Source of the DNA: an uncultured Spirochaetota bacterium
GTDB lineage: Bacteria; Spirochaetota; UBA4802; UBA5550
Assembly: GCA_937872225.1 (NCBI GenBank)
Contig: CALMRZ010000017.1
Coordinates: forward strand, 156,325-220,324
Direction: 5' to 3'
Length of the DNA stretch: 64,000 bases
A program made the translations under genes and the position numbers. Positions 13,671-46,405 of this stretch are shown here, piece after piece (position 1 is the first letter of the stretch; every line of letters begins with the position of its first letter). A model generated the notes under the pieces. The model was given only the letters and a program-made list of their open reading frames with translations. It ran no database searches and was not told where the DNA came from.

Positions 13671-13886
13671 GGTATTGTTTGTACAGGAATATATTTCCAG
13701 CGCAAGTTCTTTTTACTGGTTGGTGCGTGATAAAACCGAAGGTGCGACCGAGGATGAGGTATATGCAATTATTGAGTCTATGGCAATTAATGATTGAAAT
13801 TGTCTTCATCCGTTGCTAGTATAGCTTAATTTCACTACCGCCGTTCTCATTAGTATTACCATCACCAGTAAGGGGTAATTGCAATA

Positions 13887-15113
13887 ATGAGTACCAGAGA
13901 CAAAATAATTACATCATACGCCGATCACATTTCCCCGGGCAAGGTCGACATTTATTCTAAGTTTCACCTTATGCTTGTTCCCGGAAAACGAGACGGCTGT
14001 TACCTCTATGACATTAATGGGACGAGGTATATCAATTGTCACAGTAACGGCGGTGTGTTCAATCTCGGCCATCGCAACCGGCGGATAATACGCGCCGTCA
14101 GCGAGGCGATGAAACAATACGACATAGGAAATCATCACCTGGTCAGCGAACCGAAGGCTCGGCTGGGAGAATTATTGGCATCGTCAATGCCGGCAGGATT
14201 AAACCAGGTTGTGTACGGGGTTAGCGGCGGGGAGGCGGTTGACCTGGCCATCAAACTTGCCCGGGGAGTCACCGGCAGGGCGGAGATTATTTCTGCAAAG
14301 GGTGGGTACCACGGGCACACCGGGCTTGCCCTTGCCACCGGGGACAGGAAATTCAGGGAGAAATTCGGTCCATCCATACCGGGCTTCCGGCAGGTCCGTT
14401 TTAATGACATTGGCAGCCTTGAAAAGGCATTGTCGAAAAAAACGGCAGCAGTGGTGTTTGAGACAATTCCCGCTACCATGGGAATAGTGGTCCCAGCAAA
14501 AGATTTCTACCGGAAGGTCAAATTACTATGCGAAAGCAACGGCACATTGCTCATCATGGATGAAATACAAACCGGTTTTGGACGGACGGGCTCCATGTGG
14601 GGATTCGATCAATTCAATGTTGTTCCTGATATCGTGACACTGGGCAAGGGCATGAGCGGCGGAATATATCCCATTACCGCCACCGTGTACAGGGAAAAAT
14701 ACGCCGGGTTTTTCAGGGAGGACCCTTTTGTCCACATCTCTACGTTCGGCGGGAGCGAGATTGGATGCCTTGTAGCCATCGAAGTGATGCGTATTACCGG
14801 CAGGGGGCCGTTTTTGAAGCACGTGAATGCAATGGGCAAATTTTTTTCCGAACGGCTGGACAACCTTTCCCGAAAATACCCGTCCTTGAAATTACGGGTC
14901 AGAGGCCTTGGCCTCATGATGGGCCTTGAATTCAAGGATGAAATGACAGCGCTCTTCGTCATGAAGCACCTGTTCGATGAGGGTATTTATCTTGTCTATT
15001 CCAGTAATGATCCGAAAGTGCTCCAGTTCATGCCGGTGCTGACAATCACTAAAAGGCAGGGGGCCGACATTATGCATCGGATGGATCAGGCATTCGCTAA
15101 AATGGGGAGATAA
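13887..15113 (+). CDS. Class III PLP-dependent aminotransferase (glutamate-1-semialdehyde aminomutase-like)
   Basis: A 408-residue fold-type I PLP enzyme. The PLP-contacting Asp is in LIMDEIQTGFGRTG and the Schiff-base lysine is K254 in TLGKGMSGG. Further family marks are HSNGGVFNLGHR, VSGGEAVDLAIKLAR and KGGYHGHTG. It resembles the branch with glutamate-1-semialdehyde aminomutase and acetylornithine/omega-amino-acid aminotransferases; the lack of any heme gene nearby argues against a true hemL. It starts a tight operon: the next gene begins 6 nt after its stop. AAGGGG lies 10 nt before the ATG. The substrate is unknown. Confidence 0.85.
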   Translation: MSTRDKIITSYADHISPGKVDIYSKFHLMLVPGKRDGCYLYDINGTRYINCHSNGGVFNLGHRNRRIIRAVSEAMKQYDIGNHHLVSEPKARLGELLASSMPAGLNQVVYGVSGGEAVDLAIKLARGVTGRAEIISAKGGYHGHTGLALATGDRKFREKFGPSIPGFRQVRFNDIGSLEKALSKKTAAVVFETIPATMGIVVPAKDFYRKVKLLCESNGTLLIMDEIQTGFGRTGSMWGFDQFNVVPDIVTLGKGMSGGIYPITATVYREKYAGFFREDPFVHISTFGGSEIGCLVAIEVMRITGRGPFLKHVNAMGKFFSERLDNLSRKYPSLKLRVRGLGLMMGLEFKDEMTALFVMKHLFDEGIYLVYSSNDPKVLQFMPVLTITKRQGADIMHRMDQAFAKMGR

Positions 15114-15119
15114 AGAACG

Positions 15120-16643
15120 ATGAAGGCGAATGAAAGCAGTCACGCACCCATAATTGAATTGTTTAACAATTGTGACCTTGCATACTCATTCAAGAATAAA
15201 AGACTTCGATATCTCCGGTCAGCCTCGGTCCACAGGGAAATGCTCTATCTTCGGGATAATTTCAATACTATCTGGCAAAGAAAAGGAGATCTGTATCACC
15301 TCAAGGATGCGGATCTTTCGGTTCAGGGCCGCGATATACTCCAGGGTTTATTTGGCGACGCGGATTCAGCACAGGCTATTCTGAAGATTAACAAGGGATT
15401 TGCCGACCTTGACAGGAGACAAATAACAGATTTTTTCCGGATGCATATATCCAGCAGGGGAGCGCAAAAAAATCTGACAGCCATTCTGTTTGAAGGTGAT
15501 GATTCACTGGTCAATCTGGCCCGAAAGCAGATTCCTTATTTTGAACAGTACATGCCCACCATGAAAAAATTCAGTGAAATTGATGTGGCAACCCTGTCTC
15601 TCTCCCAACGCGATCTTGATAATATATTGCATTTTCTATCTAGATTTGATATTATTCAACAGAATCTTTCCATTGATGTGCTCCGCTATAAAGAATTTGG
15701 AAGAGATTTTTTCAGGCTCTATCGGGAAAGTGCCACAATTGATGTTGTTGGATACGGCGAAATCTCGACGGTCATGCAGCTCAACAAAAAGAGGCACGTC
15801 AGGCCTGATATCGTTGGGAGCGAATCGAAATGGATATGGAAAAAGATGCCACCCTTCCCGGGCAGGGACGATGTTGACCGATACCTGAAACTGTATGATG
15901 ATTACCGTAACATTCTTACAGAGGGGATCGGCATCGCCGTACCGATGCAGATTGCGCGGTTTTTCAGACATGATGACTATTACCAGGTCTATGCGGGCCA
16001 GGAGCGCGTAAAGGCGGAAAGCATCGGCAATGTCATCATAAAAATCCTTGATGAATCAAACGCCATCCGGCTGCTTCAAATGATATTAAAAAAGTTATGC
16101 GATGTGCATATGTTCAATCTAAAAAGCGAGACCATGAAAATAGGCATTGATGCCCAGCTTTCCAATTGGGCACTGGTCATGAAAAACAGGACAAAGGCGG
16201 AGGTCGGCGGCGATGAAGAAATATTGTATATTGATACCAGCTCGCCCATGATGCGGATCAACGGAACAGAACAGTTAAACCCGGAGATTTTTATCAAGAG
16301 TGCCGCTTCATTTTTACGACCGGTTATACGCAGGTTTTTCCTGCAGCAGGTTCTTGATCGATATTATGACATGCGAGCCGTGGCCATTGATGTAATTGCC
16401 AATCTGCATAAGGAGAAAAGAGCAGATCTGATAAACAGTTTTATTGAAACAACGAATGAATATTTTGCCGGGAAAAATATTAATGCTGCAGAGATAACCC
16501 GGAAGGAGATAGATGCGTATTATTCGAATGATGCATTTATCTGGAAGTTTTACCAGGCATCGCGAAAGATTGACCGTTTCCTTACGGAAAAAATAGCACG
16601 AAAGCGGTATATGTTCAGAATCCCTGAAAAGATTGAGCGATAA
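15120..16643 (+). CDS. Unknown protein with a divergent kinase/aminoglycoside-phosphotransferase-like fold
   Basis: A 507-residue protein without signal peptide. The first ~190 residues are helical and unrecognised. The rest carries a plausible kinase-like set: a glycine-rich GYGEIST (G211), a lysine candidate K237 or K240/241 (SKWIWKK), a catalytic-loop-like IDAQLSNW with D344 and N349 (D-x4-N), and a metal-Asp candidate D372 in YIDTSS. From memory it resembles the DUF6206 family, which I cannot confirm. It could phosphorylate a small molecule made or used by the flanking aminotransferase and Ntn hydrolase. The GTP/ATP-binding reading is inference from motif order and spacing. Confidence 0.55.
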   Translation: MKANESSHAPIIELFNNCDLAYSFKNKRLRYLRSASVHREMLYLRDNFNTIWQRKGDLYHLKDADLSVQGRDILQGLFGDADSAQAILKINKGFADLDRRQITDFFRMHISSRGAQKNLTAILFEGDDSLVNLARKQIPYFEQYMPTMKKFSEIDVATLSLSQRDLDNILHFLSRFDIIQQNLSIDVLRYKEFGRDFFRLYRESATIDVVGYGEISTVMQLNKKRHVRPDIVGSESKWIWKKMPPFPGRDDVDRYLKLYDDYRNILTEGIGIAVPMQIARFFRHDDYYQVYAGQERVKAESIGNVIIKILDESNAIRLLQMILKKLCDVHMFNLKSETMKIGIDAQLSNWALVMKNRTKAEVGGDEEILYIDTSSPMMRINGTEQLNPEIFIKSAASFLRPVIRRFFLQQVLDRYYDMRAVAIDVIANLHKEKRADLINSFIETTNEYFAGKNINAAEITRKEIDAYYSNDAFIWKFYQASRKIDRFLTEKIARKRYMFRIPEKIER

Positions 16644-16663
16644 AACTGCTGTAGGAAGCGACT

Positions 16664-18037
16664 ATGTGTGATACAATGGTTTCTACTCCAAAATCATCAG
16701 CTGATGGGTTGATGATAGTTGCAAAAAATTCCGATAGGGAGCCGAACGAGGCGCAAAACATCACCTTTGTCCCTGCTTCGGACCATCCCGCAGGTTCACG
16801 GGTAAGATGCACCTATATAGAGATTCCCCAGGTACGTCACACCTATGCAGCACTTCTATCGAGGCCCTTCTGGATGTTCGGCGCTGAAATGGGCGTGAAC
16901 GAGCATGGAGTCGCCATCGGCAACGAAGCCGTATTCACAAAAGAGAAATATCATAAAGAAAATGACGCTCTTCTGGGGATGGATATGCTCCGTCTTGCCC
17001 TTGAACGGTCGAGGAACGCCCTGGAGGCTATAGACGTGGTGACAAGGCTGCTGTCTGTCCATGGACAAGGCGGTGTTCACACGATGGGCGGAACAAAATA
17101 TTATCATAATTCATTTATCATTGCTGATCCGTCAGAAGCGTATATTCTTGAAACCGCCGGGTCCGCGTGGGTGTGTAAAAAAGTCGAAGATATAGCCACC
17201 ATCTCCAATTGCCTAACCATCGGGGATGATTATCATATGGGGTCATTTGACGGGATAAAAACGGGAAGCAGGACGAAAAAAAAGCAGCTTCATTTCAGCA
17301 GGGATTTCAGCGATACGGTGTTCACTCATTTTGCCCGCGGAAGAACCAGAAGGTCCTGCAGCTATGATTTGATGAGCAAGAGGAAGGGTGACATTACCAG
17401 CAGTGACATGATGCAGATACTGCGATCGCATAATACAGCGGAGCCTTATCACCCGGGACAAAGGCCCATGGAGCAATTATGCCTCCATGCCGGCGGTCTC
17501 ATTTCTTCTCAGACCGCAGGTTCCATGGTTGCTGTTTTAAGGAAAGGACGCATGCCCCTTGTATATTTCACTGGGACATCGGCGCCATGCATGAACGTAT
17601 TCAAGCCGCACACCATAATTAAAAATCAGAAAAAAATCTATCATACCGAAAGATTAACTCCTTCTTCATTCGGCGGCTATGACATGTACGGAAGTGCCTC
17701 GGATAGATGGGACCGTGAATCGCTCTGGTGGACGGGGGAAAGCATACATCGCCGTGTATTGATGAACTATTCAAGCCTTGTGCCGGTTGTTCATTCCGCA
17801 AGGAATGAAAAAGAAAGAATGGCAATTGAATCGGTTGAAAAAAAATGGGAAAAGAGCGATGGCATGGATTTCCTTGCTGTGTGCGGAAAACATGCAAAAG
17901 ATCTTGTGCTGCTGAATAAAAAAATTTCGGACACCGTCACGATTGAATACATGAAATTAGAAAACAAAAGAAATGTGCCCTGGTGGTTTGCTTATCAGTG
18001 GCACAGGATAAATGTAAAGGCGGGTTTTTTTATATGA
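16664..18037 (+). CDS. Secernin / C69-family Ntn-hydrolase (dipeptidase-like)
   Basis: A 457-residue protein beginning MCDTMV. In secernins and C69 peptidases, Met removal exposes this Cys2 as the N-terminal nucleophile. The following NSDREPNEAQ and the GVNEHGVAIGNEAVF block are family hallmarks, as is GGTKYYHNSFIIADPSEAYILET. Members hydrolyse amide bonds of dipeptides or unknown amides. No signal peptide, so it is cytosolic. It follows the kinase-fold gene by 20 nt and closes the operon. A role in deacylating or amidating a compound handled by the two upstream enzymes is inferred. Confidence 0.85.
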   Translation: MCDTMVSTPKSSADGLMIVAKNSDREPNEAQNITFVPASDHPAGSRVRCTYIEIPQVRHTYAALLSRPFWMFGAEMGVNEHGVAIGNEAVFTKEKYHKENDALLGMDMLRLALERSRNALEAIDVVTRLLSVHGQGGVHTMGGTKYYHNSFIIADPSEAYILETAGSAWVCKKVEDIATISNCLTIGDDYHMGSFDGIKTGSRTKKKQLHFSRDFSDTVFTHFARGRTRRSCSYDLMSKRKGDITSSDMMQILRSHNTAEPYHPGQRPMEQLCLHAGGLISSQTAGSMVAVLRKGRMPLVYFTGTSAPCMNVFKPHTIIKNQKKIYHTERLTPSSFGGYDMYGSASDRWDRESLWWTGESIHRRVLMNYSSLVPVVHSARNEKERMAIESVEKKWEKSDGMDFLAVCGKHAKDLVLLNKKISDTVTIEYMKLENKRNVPWWFAYQWHRINVKAGFFI

Positions 18038-38464: not shown

Positions 38465-38501
38465 TGGAGCCTCTATGCCATTGCGGCAGCGGGTGGCATG
38501 C

Positions 38502-38515
38502 TTCCCTGCAGGGAA
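38502..38515. repeat. 14-bp perfect palindrome before the macroglobulin gene
   Basis: TTCCCTGCAGGGAA sits 21 bp upstream of the macroglobulin ATG, between it and the AMMECR1 gene. It may be a repressor site or a small hairpin; nothing identifies the protein that would bind. Confidence 0.35.
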
Positions 38516-38536
38516 TATTTATTATTGGAGGACCCG

Positions 38537-41500
38537 ATGTTAAAAAAAATTGTACTGAATGGCGCCCTTATCGCTATCGGCGTCTTTTTTCTCAGTTGTG
38601 ATACGGCAGAGGTAAAGCGTCTTTCCGACGGCCGAAGCCTGTACGGCGGGGACAGTAAAAAATTATCGGGTAAATCCGCGATCGAAGGATATGTGATAGA
38701 TACCGTTACCAAAAAGGGGATAAAAAACGCGAAGGTTGAAATCAAGAATGCCAACATGGGCGTCGGCTATTACCTCCGCGAAACGGAATGGAACGGTTAT
38801 TTTAAAATCGATGATTTCATTCCCTATATCAAATACATGGTTGAAGTGTCCGCAGAAGGATACGTTACCTATACATCCACCGGCGCGGTTTCAGAGGGGT
38901 CCCACAAGATAGAACTCAGGCCTGAATCGGTCTTGACCGGTACCGTCTGTAACAGCAGGGGGGAACCGCTCAGGGGCATTGAGGTCAAGCTGAATACCTA
39001 TAACGAGGAGAGCGGCGAGGAAGGGGAGTATGCGTCGCCCAAACCAAGGATGAGCGCCACGGACCAGAACGGACTTTACCGCTTTGACAAACTCCCGGCC
39101 GGGTCCTACCTGGCGACCTTTTCGGGGCCCGGCTTCATAACCGAAACCGCGCAGCTTCAAAAAATAAAGGAGGGGGAGACCTTTACCCTGCCCATGGTCA
39201 TGATCCGTCCGGCGACGGTAACAGGCGTGGTGACCATAGAGGGCATCGAAACCCCGGCTATAAACGTTGATGTGACCCTCAGCGGCAATGTGACCTATTC
39301 TGCGACGACCTACCAGGACGGGACGTTCCGCCTCGAGGATGTTAAACCCGGCAATTATAAAATGAAGGTCAGCCACCAGGGATTTTATGATCTGCAGGGT
39401 CGGGAAATACGGATCCATGAAGGGGAAAAACGTGACCGGGTCAATTTCACGGTCAGGGCCAAGGAACCCCAGGTACAGGTCTATGCCCACCGGTATACCT
39501 TTTCGCCCGGCGATACCGTTGAATTTAATTTACGATCGCTTCGCCTCGAAAGCCTGAGGGTTACCATCTACAGGGTCCCCGTGGACCTGCTGGTGCGGGG
39601 CGGCGTTGATCCGGATACAATCAATCCCGAGGAGTCGGGATTGAAAGCGGTGACGTCCTGGGACGAGCCGATCAGGGAATTCGAACCCTACGAGTGGCGG
39701 TACCAGTCCCTGCAGGTGAAAACCGCCATGCCCACCGGCGGGTACTGCGTCGAGGTGAAGGGTGCGGGGAAGGTCATAAGCAGGAAGTTCTTCTCCCTTA
39801 CCACGGTAGGTGTCGTTATGAAGCGCTCGCAGGATTCCATCTTCGCCTACGTCACGAACCTTGTGGACAACACGCCGATTCCTGACGCCAGAATCGCGGT
39901 TTTTGATGCCACACCGGTACAGAAGAAAGGGAAGAAAAGGGCGACCTATAAGGCCCCTGAAAAGGTGGAGGACCTACCGGTTGCCCTGGTGCTTAAGGGA
40001 ACGACCGATGTTGAGGGTATCTATCATAGAAAGATACAATCCAGCAAATACCTGTCCACCATTGTCATAGCTAAGGACGGGAGCTATGCGCTCTGCAACA
40101 CCGGCGCCCCGTCGTCCTTTGAGAAGGAGCAGAAAAAATATTTCATTTATACTGACAGGCCCGTGTACAGGGCCGGGGACACGGTCCATTACAAGATAAT
40201 CGGCAAAAACCGGGAACGGCGTTTTGTGCCGGTCGCGGGTCAGAAAATCTATTACAAGATCAGAAACTGGGACATGGACAGGACCATTGACGAAGGTGAG
40301 GCTTCCCTTGACGACTGGGGGGTTGCTGACAGCAAGGTGGTGCTGTCCCGGGAAGGAAACCTGGGCATTCACGAGATCATGGTGGGGCCGTCGGAAAATA
40401 ATCTCTACAGCAGGGGGAAATTTTACGTTGAGCAGTACCGCAAGCCGGAATTTGTCATCAATGTCACCCCCGCCAAGGAATACTTTATTAACGGCGATAC
40501 GGCGGAATTCAAGGTGGAAGCGAAGTATTTTTTCGGCGCTCCCCTGAAGGGCGCCCTGGTGAAATACCGTTTTTATGAAACGAAACTCCGGGACGATGAT
40601 ACCAGCTACTGGTGGGAGCAGGATTACGGGACCGGCGGTTCCTACAACCGGATAATTCTGGAAGGGGAAAAATACGCTGATAATGACGGCATCGCGGTGC
40701 TGCGTCTCCATGCAGGCAATTATCCCTACGACCGTGAGATAACCTGCGAGGCCACCGTGGTTGACCGATCCAATGTGAGTATCAGCTCCACGAACAAGGT
40801 CAAGGTGGGACGCGGTGAATACTATATAAAAATCGAACCGGCGCAGCATTTCTTCTCAAGCGGCGAAAACAAACCGGTCACGATACGCACCATGACCCAT
40901 ACCGGCAGGCCGTACCGGGCCAAGGTGAAGGTGGATCTGTACCGGTACATATGGAAGCCCTGGGAGCGGGTCTATGTCCATGACAGCAAGCCCCTCTTCT
41001 CTGAGCAGGTGGCCACGGACGATCGGGGTGCCGCCACGGTGGAACTGCCGAAACAGTTCAGCTTCTACGGAGAATTCGACCTCGTGGTCAACGGGGTTGA
41101 CCGCAAGGACAATGTCGTCTCCGCTTCGCGGGTGATATGGATCTACAGCATGGAAGGGGCCAGGGTCGCGTCGCGGTTCAAGAACCTGGAGCTCTCCGTC
41201 AATTCCACGGAGCTGACCAAGCCCGGTGAGATCACCTGCCTCATCAAGAGCTGCTTCACCGATGCCTATGTATGCGTCACCCTTGAAGGCAGAGACGTGT
41301 ATGAATCGAAGGTGATAAAGATGACCGGTAATATCATGCCGGTGAAATTCGACATCAAGCCGGAATACGCGCCGAACCTCTATGTTACGGCAACCATGCA
41401 GCGGAAGAGGGCCCTCTATACGTCATCGGTGGGCGTCTCCCTGCCGATCCATGATACGGCCCTCACTATTTCCATAGAGACCGATAAGGCGAAATACCTG

Positions 41501-43915
41501 CCGGGGGAAAAGGCAAATGTTCTTCTCAGGGCTGTGGACGGAAACGGCAAGCCGGTGAAGGCGGACCTTTCCCTGGCGGCGGTTGACGAGGCTATATTTC
41601 AGGTCCGCTATGACCATACGCCCCTGATGAGGGATTACTTTTACACGAAGATATCCAACTGGGTCCTCACCAGTTATTCATACCCCATAACCATGCTGGC
41701 TGGAGCCGCAAAGGACGGCAAGGTGAAGGTGAGGGAGAAATTCGAGGACACGGCATTCTGGTCAGCGAAGATCAGGACCGGCGATGACGGGACCGCCCGG
41801 GTGAATTTCACCCTGCCGGACAACCTGACCACCTGGCGGCTCACTGCGCGGGGACATGACCGGGAAGGCCGGATGGGCGAAAAGAAGAGCACGTTCCTCG
41901 TGACCCAGGACCTGATCGCACGCATCGGCAAACCGCGCTTCATGGTGGAAGGGGACACCCTGGATCTGATTGGCATTGTGAACAGCAATACCGAACGGGG
42001 GCTCAAGAAAGTTGACACCATATTCAAGGCTGACGATAAGGTCCTGGCTGCGGAAGAAGAGGTGTCAATCAGCCTGCCTCCTTTCGGTTCAGCCCGTAAT
42101 TATTATCCCTACAAGGTCCCGAAAGACAAGCGCGAGGTGGCGCTACAGTTTTCAGCGTTGTCGATCCTGGACGCCAGGGACGCGCTCAAGGTTGCGGTAC
42201 CGGTGGAGCGGCGGGGGACTCCCTTCAAACTCTACGGTATCGGCGACATGGCTGCCAACAGGACCGTCACGGTAACGCCCCTTGCGGAAACGGATGATTT
42301 TAACTTTGTCGCTGAATCAGTGACCGTATCGGTCAGTCCGTCCCCCATCATACAGATGCTCAGGGCCACGAAATACCTGAGCGAGTACCCCTACGGCTGT
42401 ATCGAGCAGGCCCTGAACAGCTTCATCCCGAACCTTGCCCTGAACCGGATGCTTAAGCAGAAGGGCTATGACCGCTTCATCAATGACAAGGCGAAGAAAA
42501 AGCTCGATGATAAAGTCAGCGCCGGCGTGGACCGGATCCAGCGCTATCAGAATGACGACGGCACCTGGGGATGGTGGTCCGGGAGCCGCGGCAACGCCTT
42601 CGTCACCGGCTACGTTCTCTTTTCACTGCACCTGGCCCAAGAGGCGGGATTTGCCGTTGATAAATCGGTTGTCACGAAGGGCCTGGGCGCCATCAAGAAA
42701 TATTTTGCCAATCCCCAGCTTGAAGAATGGGACGCCATTGCGTACCTGATCTATATCAACGCCCTCTGGGGACGATGGGACCATGAGATTTTCAAAAAGA
42801 TACTCAAGGTAAATGAGTCGGGCACGTACCAGACTGCCTGCCTGGTAAAAGCCTTGTCATTGGCTAAGTCCCATCCAACGTTGACTGATGAAATGAAGAG
42901 CGACATAAACGGCACGCTGCCGAAACTGGTTGAGTCCATTATCCAGACCGTTAAAAAGGACGGCCGCGGCATTTACTGGGAGAGCCGGGGCAGGGACCGC
43001 TGGAGCTGGCCCGGGGGCGAAACGGAGATGACGGCCCACGTGCTGTCGGCGCTGGTAAGCGCGGGGGACCGTTCGACGCTTCCGGCACAGTTGGTGCGCT
43101 CCCTGTGCGGTCGGTCCCGCGGTGACTCATGGAACTCCACCAAGGAAACCGCCACCGTCATGCTGGCCCTGTGCGGTTATCTTGAGCAGTATGGAGGTTC
43201 AGCCGTCACCAGGGGGAATGTCATGTTCAGCCTGGACGGGAAAAAAATCGCCGATGTTGACTACGATCTGGAGAATCCCGGAATAATGGAAAAACTCACG
43301 CGAAAGATTGAACTTGCGGGGGAACGCCCGCGGGCATCGTTTACCGTCAGCGCAGACGGGAATGCTGGCGCGGACGTGAACTTTGACGTAACCATTGCCG
43401 GCACCCTCTATTTCAAGGAAAAGGGAGCGCTGTCCCTGGTGCGATCCGAAGAACGAGGCATTGGCGCGCTTTCCAACGGCATCAGGATCACCAGGACCTT
43501 CGCATCAATTATGAGAGTGCGCGATTCGCGCAACAATGAGTATATGGTGCCGCAGAGCCTGGCGGAAAAGAAGGTGATCCAGGTTGGTGACGAGCTCCTG
43601 GTCAAGGTGAAATTTCAGGCCCAGGACGACTTCCAGTACCTGGTCCTTGAGGATTATCTCCCGTCCGGCTTCGAAGTGACAAGAAACAACGCCTATGACG
43701 AATACACCCCCTTTGTCCACATCGAGCGGTGGGACAACCGGATGGTCTATTTCTTCACAGACCTTAAAAAGAACGAGGTCTATGAGGTGGCCTACATCGT
43801 CCGGGCGGAGCTGCCGGGTAATTTCATGGTAAAGCCGTCCCGGATGGAGTGTATGTACGAACCGACGATACAGGGATGGTCCGCGCCGGTTGTCGTGGAT
43901 GTGAAGAAAAAGTAA
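38537..43915 (+). CDS. Alpha-2-macroglobulin lipoprotein with thioester
   Basis: A 1792-residue envelope protein. It starts with a lipoprotein signal (lipobox FFLSC, Cys21). Three carboxypeptidase-regulatory-like beta domains follow (about 45-300), then macroglobulin domains, with the MG2 hallmark YTDRPVYRAGDTVHY. The thioester motif is YGCIEQ, with Cys 1288 and the E-Q pair intact, as in E. coli YfhM; an alpha-barrel TED domain surrounds it. Bacterial macroglobulins trap foreign proteases covalently in the periplasm. ATG 38537 is chosen because GGAGG precedes it and the lipoprotein signal starts there. In many bacteria such genes sit next to pbpC; here LapA and a SpoIID-transpeptidase fusion follow. 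Confidence 0.93.
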   Translation: MLKKIVLNGALIAIGVFFLSCDTAEVKRLSDGRSLYGGDSKKLSGKSAIEGYVIDTVTKKGIKNAKVEIKNANMGVGYYLRETEWNGYFKIDDFIPYIKYMVEVSAEGYVTYTSTGAVSEGSHKIELRPESVLTGTVCNSRGEPLRGIEVKLNTYNEESGEEGEYASPKPRMSATDQNGLYRFDKLPAGSYLATFSGPGFITETAQLQKIKEGETFTLPMVMIRPATVTGVVTIEGIETPAINVDVTLSGNVTYSATTYQDGTFRLEDVKPGNYKMKVSHQGFYDLQGREIRIHEGEKRDRVNFTVRAKEPQVQVYAHRYTFSPGDTVEFNLRSLRLESLRVTIYRVPVDLLVRGGVDPDTINPEESGLKAVTSWDEPIREFEPYEWRYQSLQVKTAMPTGGYCVEVKGAGKVISRKFFSLTTVGVVMKRSQDSIFAYVTNLVDNTPIPDARIAVFDATPVQKKGKKRATYKAPEKVEDLPVALVLKGTTDVEGIYHRKIQSSKYLSTIVIAKDGSYALCNTGAPSSFEKEQKKYFIYTDRPVYRAGDTVHYKIIGKNRERRFVPVAGQKIYYKIRNWDMDRTIDEGEASLDDWGVADSKVVLSREGNLGIHEIMVGPSENNLYSRGKFYVEQYRKPEFVINVTPAKEYFINGDTAEFKVEAKYFFGAPLKGALVKYRFYETKLRDDDTSYWWEQDYGTGGSYNRIILEGEKYADNDGIAVLRLHAGNYPYDREITCEATVVDRSNVSISSTNKVKVGRGEYYIKIEPAQHFFSSGENKPVTIRTMTHTGRPYRAKVKVDLYRYIWKPWERVYVHDSKPLFSEQVATDDRGAATVELPKQFSFYGEFDLVVNGVDRKDNVVSASRVIWIYSMEGARVASRFKNLELSVNSTELTKPGEITCLIKSCFTDAYVCVTLEGRDVYESKVIKMTGNIMPVKFDIKPEYAPNLYVTATMQRKRALYTSSVGVSLPIHDTALTISIETDKAKYLPGEKANVLLRAVDGNGKPVKADLSLAAVDEAIFQVRYDHTPLMRDYFYTKISNWVLTSYSYPITMLAGAAKDGKVKVREKFEDTAFWSAKIRTGDDGTARVNFTLPDNLTTWRLTARGHDREGRMGEKKSTFLVTQDLIARIGKPRFMVEGDTLDLIGIVNSNTERGLKKVDTIFKADDKVLAAEEEVSISLPPFGSARNYYPYKVPKDKREVALQFSALSILDARDALKVAVPVERRGTPFKLYGIGDMAANRTVTVTPLAETDDFNFVAESVTVSVSPSPIIQMLRATKYLSEYPYGCIEQALNSFIPNLALNRMLKQKGYDRFINDKAKKKLDDKVSAGVDRIQRYQNDDGTWGWWSGSRGNAFVTGYVLFSLHLAQEAGFAVDKSVVTKGLGAIKKYFANPQLEEWDAIAYLIYINALWGRWDHEIFKKILKVNESGTYQTACLVKALSLAKSHPTLTDEMKSDINGTLPKLVESIIQTVKKDGRGIYWESRGRDRWSWPGGETEMTAHVLSALVSAGDRSTLPAQLVRSLCGRSRGDSWNSTKETATVMLALCGYLEQYGGSAVTRGNVMFSLDGKKIADVDYDLENPGIMEKLTRKIELAGERPRASFTVSADGNAGADVNFDVTIAGTLYFKEKGALSLVRSEERGIGALSNGIRITRTFASIMRVRDSRNNEYMVPQSLAEKKVIQVGDELLVKVKFQAQDDFQYLVLEDYLPSGFEVTRNNAYDEYTPFVHIERWDNRMVYFFTDLKKNEVYEVAYIVRAELPGNFMVKPSRMECMYEPTIQGWSAPVVVDVKKK

Positions 43916-43937
43916 CAGGCATCCACAGGGGGACGTC

Positions 43938-44026
43938 TCAGAACACCCCCCAACCCCCCGGAGGGAGCTTTTAATGCTAGTTTTGCTCAAATAAGTCCCC
44001 CTCCGGGGGGTTGGGGGCTTTTCTGA
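43938..44026. repeat. Large G/C-rich inverted repeat, possible dispersed element
   Basis: A perfect 19-bp arm CCCCCAACCCCCCGGAGGG (43947-43965) faces its complement at 43999-44017, with a 33-nt spacer; outer TCAGAA/TTCTGA (43938-43943, 44021-44026) extends it imperfectly to 28 bp. The spacer is A/T-rich. It fills the gap between the macroglobulin and lapA genes. It could end transcription, but a clean T run is absent; a REP- or MITE-like dispersed repeat is equally possible. Confidence 0.75.
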
Positions 44027-44057
44027 CAGCCCCATATTCCATTAAAAAGAGGCCGCA

Positions 44058-44273
44058 ATGAAACCGAAAACTATCGCGCTAATCGTCATGACCATTCTGC
44101 TGACAATACTGGTGATACAAAACACCCATTCAATTGCCCTGCATATATTCTTCTGGGCCCCGGAATTCCCCCTGATCATAGTGATCATAATCATTATGGG
44201 CGCAGGTTTTGGATTGGGCTTTTTTGCGAGAAATCTCATGGGCGTGGTCAAGAAAAAAGGGGATGATTATTAA
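44058..44273 (+). CDS. LapA domain membrane protein
   Basis: A 71-residue protein with two transmembrane helices (TIALIVMTILLTILVIQNTH and PLIIVIIIIMGAGFGLGFFA) separated by SIALHIFFWAPEF, then a basic tail. This is the LapA (YciS) pattern: inner-membrane protein linked in E. coli to control of lipopolysaccharide assembly. Its stop overlaps the start of the SpoIID-transpeptidase gene by one base, so the two are coupled. Confidence 0.8.
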   Translation: MKPKTIALIVMTILLTILVIQNTHSIALHIFFWAPEFPLIIVIIIIMGAGFGLGFFARNLMGVVKKKGDDY

Positions 44274-46405
44274 TGTCCCTGCCTGATGGTCACAGATACC
44301 AGTATTCAATCAAGGTTCTGCCGGTTGTACTGCCAATGAAGCACTATAGGGTCATACTGTTTTCGTGTATCATGGCTTTTCTCGTTTTCCCTCTCAATGC
44401 GGAAACGGTTTCTGATCCAGTGGTAACCATCCATGTGTTATCAAAACAGGTCCGGTTGCTTAAAAGCGGCGCTGTAAAAAAAATATCCATAATGATAAAA
44501 AAGGATTCGATTATCAGGGATGAGTCCGGCAACAGATTGCCGGATGGAAAAATCATTGAATTCATTGCCCATGGAGGGACAGTGGATGCTTATCTTGATT
44601 CAAAACTGCTGCAGGGTCCCGGCTCCCTAGTCATTTTTTCCGGATCGAACATGGACGCGGCCGAGGTCTCCATTGATGGCGCCGTCAGGAATTATCCTCT
44701 CCCCATGACTCTCCGATTCAAAAATAATGATCTCAGGATCTATGTGGCGGAACGTCTCAGCAGGTATGCCGTTGATTCGGCCCTGGCCGAATACAACGGG
44801 AATCAATGGAAAGAAACAGAGGGAATCATGGCCCTGGCGCATTTGATAAGGGCCCGATATTTTTTAGGGAAAAAGGGGCATCAGCATGGGGAAGGCGATT
44901 TCTGCGACCTCACCCATTGCCAGGTGTACCGCGGGCGGATAGAAAGCCGTCTGAGATTCGATGATGACTGGGTGATCGACCATGAAAAAATGAGGGATAA
45001 CCTTTTTTTTCATTCACGGTGCGGGGGAAAGACCTGTGATCAGGGCGTATTTACCGGCAGAAGACACTCGGCTGGCACCAATGGGGCGGGTGTCAGGGAT
45101 TGGCTGTATCGGGAAGGGATCCGCCTCTGCTCGGGGAAGGACTCCCACTGGGAACGGTCCATCAGCCAGGATGAACTGTGTTCTATCTTTTTCCCCGGGA
45201 AAAAGGATGCCGGCAATTCAGCAATCACACTCAGCCATGACACGAATAATCTGAAAGTCAATGTCACATCATCTTGCGATAATCTGCAGTTGGCGTTAGA
45301 ATCATTCCGATTAACAATAAACCGGGTCAAGGGATGGAATTTCATCCGCAGCAACAACTATACCATTTCAGAGAAAATCATTGATGGGCAAAAGAATTTC
45401 CATTTCAAGGGGGAGGGCCTCGGCCATGGCGTCGGTCTGTGCCAGCACGGGGCCATGGCCCTGTCCAAGCTGGGATACAACAGGTACGAGATACTGGAGC
45501 ACTATTATCCCGACATCCAATTCATGCATATCGGATCAAGTGCATGCCTGTCTCCCTATTGCTCCTATTGTCTTTTTGATGTTGCAACAGGAAAAATCAT
45601 TTCATCAACCCAGGGGCCGGGATTTTTGCAGAGAAAAGTTCCTCCCGGTTCACTGTTCAAGCTGATCGTGGCCCTGTATGTCGCGGCGGAGCGGCCGGAC
45701 ATTTTTAATGACTATGCGCATAACTGCTCTGGACGAAACAGGGACGATACAAATATTCCAGAGCGATGCTGGAAGCCGAAGGGTCATGGCATGGTGAGGA
45801 TGAAGGATGCCATTCCTAATTCATGCAATCTCTATTTTGCCTCTCTGTACAAAATCATATCCGAAAAAAAATTCAGGATCTTTTATCGGGATTGGTGCGC
45901 TTCAGCAGGAATTAGTGCGGCGCTTCCGGCAACCTCAAGTGTACGGCAGTGGGCGGAACTTCTGGCCGGACTTGATTTCAGAGTGTCTTTTACCGTCAGC
46001 GATTGCATGCGCCTGGCCCGTTATCTTTATTGCGGCAATGCCGGGGAAAGCCTGGCGGCAATGCCGGGTACAAAAATCAGCTATCAGGAGAAAGTAAAAA
46101 TCTTCAATGGTTTGCAGGAAACCTTTACCCGGGGAACAGCCCGTGAACAGAAAAAACGATCAGGCGCGTTCTATAGTTACCAATGCCTTGAAAATGCGGG
46201 TAAAGATAATGTGAAGACACCATTGACGGAACTCTGGGGAAAAACGTCGACCGTTATCGATGGGACGAATAAGCCGGAGAGCTGCGGCATTTTCATGGGC
46301 GGCAACGGCACACGGGGTATCATTGTCATAGTGAGAAAAGCGAACGGCAATATGGCTTCCCGCTGGGCCAGAAGGATCCTCTCGAAAACCGTCCCCGGGG
46401 AATAA
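44273..46405 (+). CDS. SpoIID/LytB domain fused to a penicillin-binding transpeptidase-like domain
   Basis: A 710-residue chimera. Residues ~50-430 form a SpoIID/LytB domain: the presumed catalytic acid E183 (TEGIMALAHLIRARYFL), CDLTHCQVYRG, and GHGVGLCQHGAMAL near the end. SpoIID cuts glycan strands lacking stem peptides. Residues ~440-710 carry the three transpeptidase motifs in order: SLFK at 460-463 (SxxK), SCN at 517-519 (SxN) and KTS at 657-659 (for KTG). Spacings of 57 and 140 residues match real PBPs (E. coli PBP3: 52 and 135). A signal peptide begins at an internal ATG (44336); ATG 44273 has an AGGGGA site and overlaps lapA. The start is thus uncertain. Confidence 0.8.
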   Translation: MSLPDGHRYQYSIKVLPVVLPMKHYRVILFSCIMAFLVFPLNAETVSDPVVTIHVLSKQVRLLKSGAVKKISIMIKKDSIIRDESGNRLPDGKIIEFIAHGGTVDAYLDSKLLQGPGSLVIFSGSNMDAAEVSIDGAVRNYPLPMTLRFKNNDLRIYVAERLSRYAVDSALAEYNGNQWKETEGIMALAHLIRARYFLGKKGHQHGEGDFCDLTHCQVYRGRIESRLRFDDDWVIDHEKMRDNLFFHSRCGGKTCDQGVFTGRRHSAGTNGAGVRDWLYREGIRLCSGKDSHWERSISQDELCSIFFPGKKDAGNSAITLSHDTNNLKVNVTSSCDNLQLALESFRLTINRVKGWNFIRSNNYTISEKIIDGQKNFHFKGEGLGHGVGLCQHGAMALSKLGYNRYEILEHYYPDIQFMHIGSSACLSPYCSYCLFDVATGKIISSTQGPGFLQRKVPPGSLFKLIVALYVAAERPDIFNDYAHNCSGRNRDDTNIPERCWKPKGHGMVRMKDAIPNSCNLYFASLYKIISEKKFRIFYRDWCASAGISAALPATSSVRQWAELLAGLDFRVSFTVSDCMRLARYLYCGNAGESLAAMPGTKISYQEKVKIFNGLQETFTRGTAREQKKRSGAFYSYQCLENAGKDNVKTPLTELWGKTSTVIDGTNKPESCGIFMGGNGTRGIIVIVRKANGNMASRWARRILSKTVPGE

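Follow-up and report, generated by a model that had tools for sequence, protein, structure and literature searches.

A Spirochaetota operon joining a class III PLP enzyme, a DUF6206 kinase-fold protein and a secernin: a proposed amino-alcohol catabolic module

Pairs of a kinase and a class III phospho-lyase are known from animals, as in the hydroxylysine kinase/phospholyase and ethanolamine-phosphate phospho-lyase systems. Here we describe an operon in a 64,000-nucleotide (nt) stretch of DNA (the window) from an uncultured Spirochaetota bacterium, contig CALMRZ010000017.1; its three genes encode a class III pyridoxal 5'-phosphate (PLP) enzyme, a protein of family DUF6206 with a predicted kinase fold, and a secernin-type hydrolase. 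Like the animal pairs, it combines a kinase-fold enzyme with a class III PLP enzyme lacking the Glu/Arg pair of ornithine-type transaminases; unlike them, its kinase belongs to DUF6206 and not to PF01636, its PLP enzyme falls in another class III clade with Gln in place of Lys, and a secernin is attached. The amino-alcohol microcompartment locus RMM/AAUM, known in Mycobacterium and Rhodococcus according to an excerpt of one paper (PMC4207490), likewise has a phosphotransferase gene and an aminotransferase-family gene, and its kinase (structure 6ef6) ranks first among the structural matches of the DUF6206 domain; the window operon differs in having no shell gene, dehydrogenase, or permease, and we found no sequence similarity between the kinases. 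Further parallels are the fused kinase-PLP proteins PRK06148 and PRK06149 and an operon on Thioclava plasmids in which a secernin, a kinase, and a class III PLP gene also lie together; there, however, the kinase and PLP enzyme come from the APH and ETNPPL-like families, and Thioclava has an additional amidase gene. Finally, the window secernin shares a C69 profile and a Met-Cys start with the secernins SCRN1-3 and the C69 dipeptidases, but unlike the dipeptidases it stays below the NCBIfam cut-off for that group (NF033678, 39.8 bits against an equivalog cut-off of 250). Kinase/phospho-lyase pairs are already known; this one differs in its DUF6206 kinase, its other PLP clade, and the added secernin.

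We consider it somewhat probable that the operon is a catabolic module made up of an amidase, an amino-alcohol kinase, and a phospho-lyase. The secernin would hydrolyze an amide to release a small amino-alcohol, the kinase-fold domain of DUF6206 would phosphorylate its hydroxyl, and the PLP enzyme, without the residues for 2-oxoglutarate, would eliminate phosphate and ammonia to leave an aldehyde, much as in the ethanolamine-phosphate phospho-lyase reaction. Candidate substrates are ethanolamine, 1-amino-2-propanol, or an aryl-ethanolamine bound as an N-acyl or peptidyl amide. The PLP-DUF6206 pair would form the core, gained or lost as a unit, and the secernin would be an older resident gene often joined to it. 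We base this proposal on the gene linkage, the predicted kinase fold and its residues, the loss of the Glu/Arg pair, and parallel operons on plasmids. All three open reading frames (ORFs) run in one direction with intergenic gaps of 6 and 20 nt, and the Pfam matches of all three proteins exceed the curated cut-offs:

13887..15113, + strand: class III PLP enzyme, 408 amino acids (Pfam Aminotran_3, E 7.6e-87)
14475-14477, 14646-14648 and 15024-15026, + strand: Thr197, the PLP lysine K254 and Gln380 of that enzyme (residue alignment of relatives)
15120..16643, + strand: DUF6206 protein, long form, 507 amino acids (PF19709, E 5.9e-17, 62.2 bits, cut-off 30.4)
15120..15728, + strand: its N-terminal helical domain, residues 1-203 (alignment and predicted model)
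15729..16640, + strand: its kinase-fold domain, residues 204-507 (predicted models, VIA-align, conservation)
15840-15842, 16149-16151, 16164-16166 and 16233-16235, + strand: K241, D344, N349 and D372 of that domain, which also has a glycine loop at G211-V218 (conservation)
16664..18037, + strand: secernin-type (C69) N-terminal-nucleophile hydrolase, 457 amino acids (Peptidase_C69, E 1.1e-10, 41.6 bits, cut-off 23)
16667-16669, + strand: Cys2 of the secernin (MCDT start)
13794..13822, + strand: weak promoter-like site 5' of the first gene, from a scan at chance level (14 sites against 10.6 expected, standard deviation 3.3)

These coordinates agree with the initial annotation, which had described the same layout and named the outer genes as a class III aminotransferase and an N-terminal Cys hydrolase. 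The PLP and hydrolase assignments stand, and "aminotransferase" is less apt, since the 2-oxoglutarate residues are gone. The small pathway that it guessed at, making or breaking an amine or amide with phosphate activation, agrees with the evidence and is sharpened by our proposal. Its view that no such trio had been described is partly right, given the known kinase/phospho-lyase pairs and the Thioclava operon.

The DUF6206 family has a long form of about 500-550 amino acids and a short form of about 280-375, and the helical domain, which the initial annotation had not noticed, is found only in the long one; in the window protein, the Pfam match spans residues 246-485. AlphaFold models of the whole protein and of the C-terminal domain alone have mean confidence (pLDDT) values of 86.9 and 85.6, the latter with a predicted template-modeling score (pTM) of 0.84, and a two-lobe kinase fold is predicted for the C-terminal domain. 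Foldseek returned 84 matches to this domain at E<=1e-3, and the 50 listed are all kinases or kinase-fold phosphotransferases; the whole model gave zero matches at the same threshold. Among the families listed by VIA-align, the top match, at Z 11.8 over 213 residues with an rmsd of 4.7, is 6ef6, an aminopropanol kinase from a microcompartment. A non-kinase fold would have refuted the initial annotation, and the models do not show one; the kinase-like residues that it noticed from the letters alone also hold in relatives. Across 21 relatives, K241, N349, and D372 are found in 21/21, D344 in 20/21, and G211 in 19/21; the lysine, for which K237 had also been suggested, is K241. Sequence searches with DUF6206 reached no solved kinase: a PDB profile search gave one insignificant row, no match to the APH family PF01636 was listed up to E 1, and no NCBIfam model was matched. 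No paper in the literature searched mentions DUF6206.

Could DUF6206 phosphorylate proteins, or bind nucleotides as a regulator, instead of acting as a small-molecule kinase? We regard this as very unlikely, while acknowledging two points in its favor, the first of which also counts against our proposal. Bud32/PRPK (Z 11.3 and 11.2), APH(2'')-IIIa (11.1), and WaaP (10.9) all lie within 1 Z of 6ef6, so that Bud32 and WaaP rank level with small-molecule kinases, and a kinase fold alone says nothing of the substrate. One distant member without a PLP partner also has His in place of D344. Nevertheless, the catalytic residues are complete in 20 of the 21 relatives, and DUF6206 is strictly paired with a metabolic enzyme. 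The member with His, a short DUF6206 protein encoded at L032:8119-8961 (-) in genome G173 (L and G numbers are our identifiers for loci and genomes), is the best match to the Pfam model and has no PLP neighbor; it is possibly a pseudokinase or has another role.

To describe the pairing, we surveyed a phylum-wide sample of 392 Spirochaetota genomes, with adjacency counted by longest-ORF picking. DUF6206 was found in 20 genomes, and in 18 of these the PLP gene lies immediately upstream on the same strand. In the other two, the pair is split over loci cut by contig ends (L043 and L075 of G166) or DUF6206 is the short form without a PLP gene (G173). A reverse search recovered the PLP gene at >=45% identity, a line between PLP tiers that we set by eye, again in 20 genomes, and DUF6206 adjoins it in 19, including G216, where the contig ends inside DUF6206 and which was scored as PLP alone in the association test. 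Both genes occur in 19 genomes, each alone in 1, and neither in 371 (Fisher 4e-30); because the genomes are related, this and similar p-values overstate independence. The identity matrices of the two proteins are strongly correlated (Mantel r 0.91, 18 loci, 0/5000 permutations as high); the PLP and DUF6206 genes co-evolve. One genome, G002, has a second, diverged pair (L010). The pair spans several Spirochaetota families and both DUF6206 length forms, and within the phylum its two genes are almost inseparable. A search for a conserved third gene gave nothing general: some secernin loci have a metallo-beta-lactamase, and L035 has a radical SAM gene. For its presence outside Spirochaetota, DUF6206 was searched in plasmids, viral contigs, and one scan of genome contigs: there were none in plasmids, 13 pattern matches in viral contigs with none confirmed, and one locus in the scan, itself from a Spirochaetota bacterium.

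In ornithine-type transaminases, a Glu and an Arg handle 2-oxoglutarate. At these switch positions, 18 of 18 DUF6206-linked PLP enzymes have Thr197 and Gln380, while the PLP lysine K254 is aligned in every row of the class III alignment. The Glu/Arg pair is retained by L080, another class III enzyme of the window's own genome, and it is also gone in the characterized phospholyases 5g4i (Thr/Lys) and 6tor (Cys/Lys). By sequence, the PLP protein is not a member of the phospho-lyase family; we propose that it may work like one.

A different reading makes the PLP enzyme a genuine transaminase that uses some other acceptor, such as pyruvate, with the kinase phosphorylating its product in the biosynthesis of an amino-sugar-like or amino-alcohol phosphate. 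The nearest solved relatives are indeed transaminases, and this counts against our proposal: profile scores are 301 bits for putrescine transaminase and 271 for acetylornithine transaminase against 193 for the phospho-lyase 6tor, other class III enzymes are thus nearer in sequence than the 6tor/5g4i family, and position 380 is Gln where known phospholyases have Lys. The accessible part of one paper (PMC8154272) likewise describes class III enzymes as mostly aminotransferases. We nonetheless judge this reading unlikely, given the loss of the Glu/Arg switch in all 18 DUF6206-linked enzymes and a plasmid operon, described below, that combines a same-clade enzyme with a homolog of an amino-alcohol kinase. 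The PLP protein reached no cut-off among the 25 NCBIfam models listed, and a PRK06148 search of the host family, made to find a phospho-lyase reference, gave no member above the cut-off.

More distant PLP genes, 39-41% identical, occur in six places with a different neighborhood from the DUF6206-linked genes: five of the six have a common neighbor of 465-474 amino acids where complete, L069 being the sixth. The two checked for residues, L070 and L072, retain Glu/Arg. Separately, the PLP gene of G198 is broken across two reading frames at L046:6190-7609 (+), by a frameshift or an assembly error.

The Thr/Gln signature is also found on plasmids, in the three best plasmid PLP matches (L076, L077, and L078), and these enzymes join the window PLP clade with support of 99/98. 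On the plasmid of Pseudomonas MPC6, a phosphotransferase, a transporter, an SDR gene, and the PLP gene follow each other on one strand with gaps of 11, 1, and 44 nt, and the kinase is homologous to the aminopropanol kinase 6ef6 (E 2.5e-45). The same-clade PLP genes of Phyllobacterium and Mesorhizobium adjoin instead an "alkaline phosphatase family" gene, with PF01663 in the one tested. At L076:5709-9124 (+), the Thr/Gln class III gene is flanked on one side by a PF01663 phosphodiesterase-type gene and on the other by a phosphonate-operon protein, with PhnF nearby.

These neighbors raise the possibility of a PLP enzyme that, like PbfA, works as an ammonia-lyase or in a similar way on an aminophosphonate or other phosphorylated amine that is not the product of the neighboring kinase. 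In its favor, two same-clade plasmid enzymes adjoin the alkaline phosphatase-type gene, and one of these is also near the PhnF regulator and the phosphonate-operon protein. The PbfA ammonia-lyase profile NF049939, however, gave the PLP protein only 226 bits against an equivalog cut-off of 525, and no phosphonate gene was recognized among the family-searched neighbors; we think this reading improbable.

Kinases like that of L078 are present in 93 plasmid records, its own included. Of these, 8 neighborhoods were read, and each of the 8 has a class III-type gene immediately upstream, with gaps of -1 to 8 nt; for three of the eight the match table already named an aminotransferase, so that this is not an unbiased rate. 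All eight of these PLP enzymes have Thr or Asn at 197 and Lys at 380, and one of them, L099, scores 489 bits to the phospholyase 5g4i and 345 to 6tor. Catabolic genes for hydroxyphenylacetate, homoprotocatechuate, or phenylacetate adjoin most of the eight pairs (L097-L104), which come from plasmids of rhizobia and sphingomonads. The nearby hpa and paa genes suggest aryl-ethanolamine substrates for the rhizobial pairs, which need not hold in Spirochaetota.

We then consider the secernin. All 29 secernin rows begin with MCDT, the Met-Cys start, and among the two NCBIfam models listed the hydrolase reached no cut-off. According to the part of one article available (PMC9140057), the substrates of human secernins, also of family C69, remain elusive. 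Literature matches for secernin with aminotransferase included, by the titles listed, none on bacterial gene clusters. At E<=1e-15, a secernin is encoded in 61 of the 392 genomes: 18 of the 20 with DUF6206 and 43 of the remaining 372. In 8 of the 20 it directly adjoins the pair, in five taxonomic families and two gene orders, PLP-DUF6206-secernin (the window's genome G000, G012, G007, G125, and G244) and secernin-PLP-DUF6206 (G175, G086, and G119). The co-occurrence search called for by the initial annotation thus finds the trio beyond close relatives. The trio is not fixed, however: the secernin is often elsewhere or without the other two genes. In G128 it lies 2.2 kb from the pair on the opposite strand; in G026, G088, G143, G151, and G198 it is elsewhere in the genome, with the neighborhood read, and in G050, G074, G130, and G166 it is elsewhere by search match alone. 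In the trio of G244, a radical SAM/SPASM gene lies directly 3' of the secernin (L035:5438-6760 (-)). A secernin without the pair at L057:5786-9675 (-) is beside two TldD/PmbA-type metallopeptidase genes.

In another phylum, we found the same kind of gene company. C69 relatives occur in 12 plasmid records, and we read six neighborhoods, five from Thioclava and one from Haladaptatus. In all five Thioclava records, an amidase, a C69 secernin, and a phosphotransferase lie in a row, and in two (L107 and L110) a class III gene comes next. The L107 secernin has the MCDT start and is 39% identical to the window secernin over 322 residues. Its kinase belongs to PF01636 and matches 6ef6 (E 7.6e-7), and its PLP gene scores 345 bits to the phospholyase 5g4i and 327 to 6tor; the two genes match opposite ends of the fused protein PRK06148 (188.7 and 446 bits). 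The Haladaptatus record has no such neighbors. The Thioclava operons therefore show that a secernin, a kinase, and a phospholyase-family gene co-reside in another phylum, with other kinase and PLP families.

Several of these observations weigh against a three-enzyme module. The secernin is non-contiguous in 12 of the 20 DUF6206 genomes and was not found in two of them (G002 and G173, one of which is 81% complete), and 43 genomes have a secernin without DUF6206. A tree of the 29 secernins branches for the most part as their hosts do, and the trio label is spread over it, with 500 of 500 shuffles as low. The same-genus genome G008 has a secernin at the same locus without the PLP-DUF6206 pair; synteny there reaches from genes for a transporter and endonuclease IV past RuvB (flanking names read from the sequences). 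Three of the five Thioclava plasmids lack an adjacent PLP gene, and their sole plasmid class III match is 29% identical and elsewhere (plasmids were searched, not chromosomes). Nor does any same-strand aldehyde dehydrogenase or transporter adjoin the window operon.

The separable secernin, its host-like tree, and the G008 site without the pair indicate that PLP and DUF6206 make up the unit, which has often joined the secernin, an older neighbor. They also favor a reading in which PLP and DUF6206 form their own two-gene amino-alcohol pathway and the secernin is a resident neighbor with an unrelated role, adjacent by position only. Such a reading fits a pair that is inseparable while the secernin is separable, a secernin that tracks its host and occurs without the pair, and a same-genus site empty of the pair. 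It accounts less well for the 8 of 20 genomes in which the secernin directly adjoins the pair, in two orders, or for a secernin again adjoining a kinase in 5 of 5 Thioclava records; we hold it to be a real possibility, if rather unlikely. At the G008 site, the place of the pair is taken by a metallo-beta-lactamase-fold gene adjoining the secernin (L050:5417-6103 (+)), and similar genes adjoin secernins in L060, L061, L063, L064, and L065.

Returning to the module of amidase, kinase, and phospho-lyase, the strict PLP pairing and the same logic in an unrelated phylum yield concrete hypotheses, with DUF6206 as an amino-alcohol kinase and secernins as the supplying amidase. More broadly, and tentatively, Spirochaetota may have built a second kinase/phospho-lyase system from other superfamily branches, DUF6206 and a transaminase-like clade, with secernins as the amidases feeding such systems in both phyla; taken whole, we find this conceivable and somewhat doubtful. 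If it is true, secernins would be N-acyl or peptidyl amino-alcohol amidases that release the amino-alcohol for the neighboring kinase. The module as first proposed already offers DUF6206 and the secernins, both little-understood families, their first role open to test. It is also a caution that class III "aminotransferases" carrying the Thr/Gln signature could be misannotated lyases.

An Rfam search gave no match. Elsewhere in the window, positions 38498-46405 encode a bacterial alpha-2-macroglobulin-like protein of 1805 amino acids followed by a transpeptidase-domain protein.

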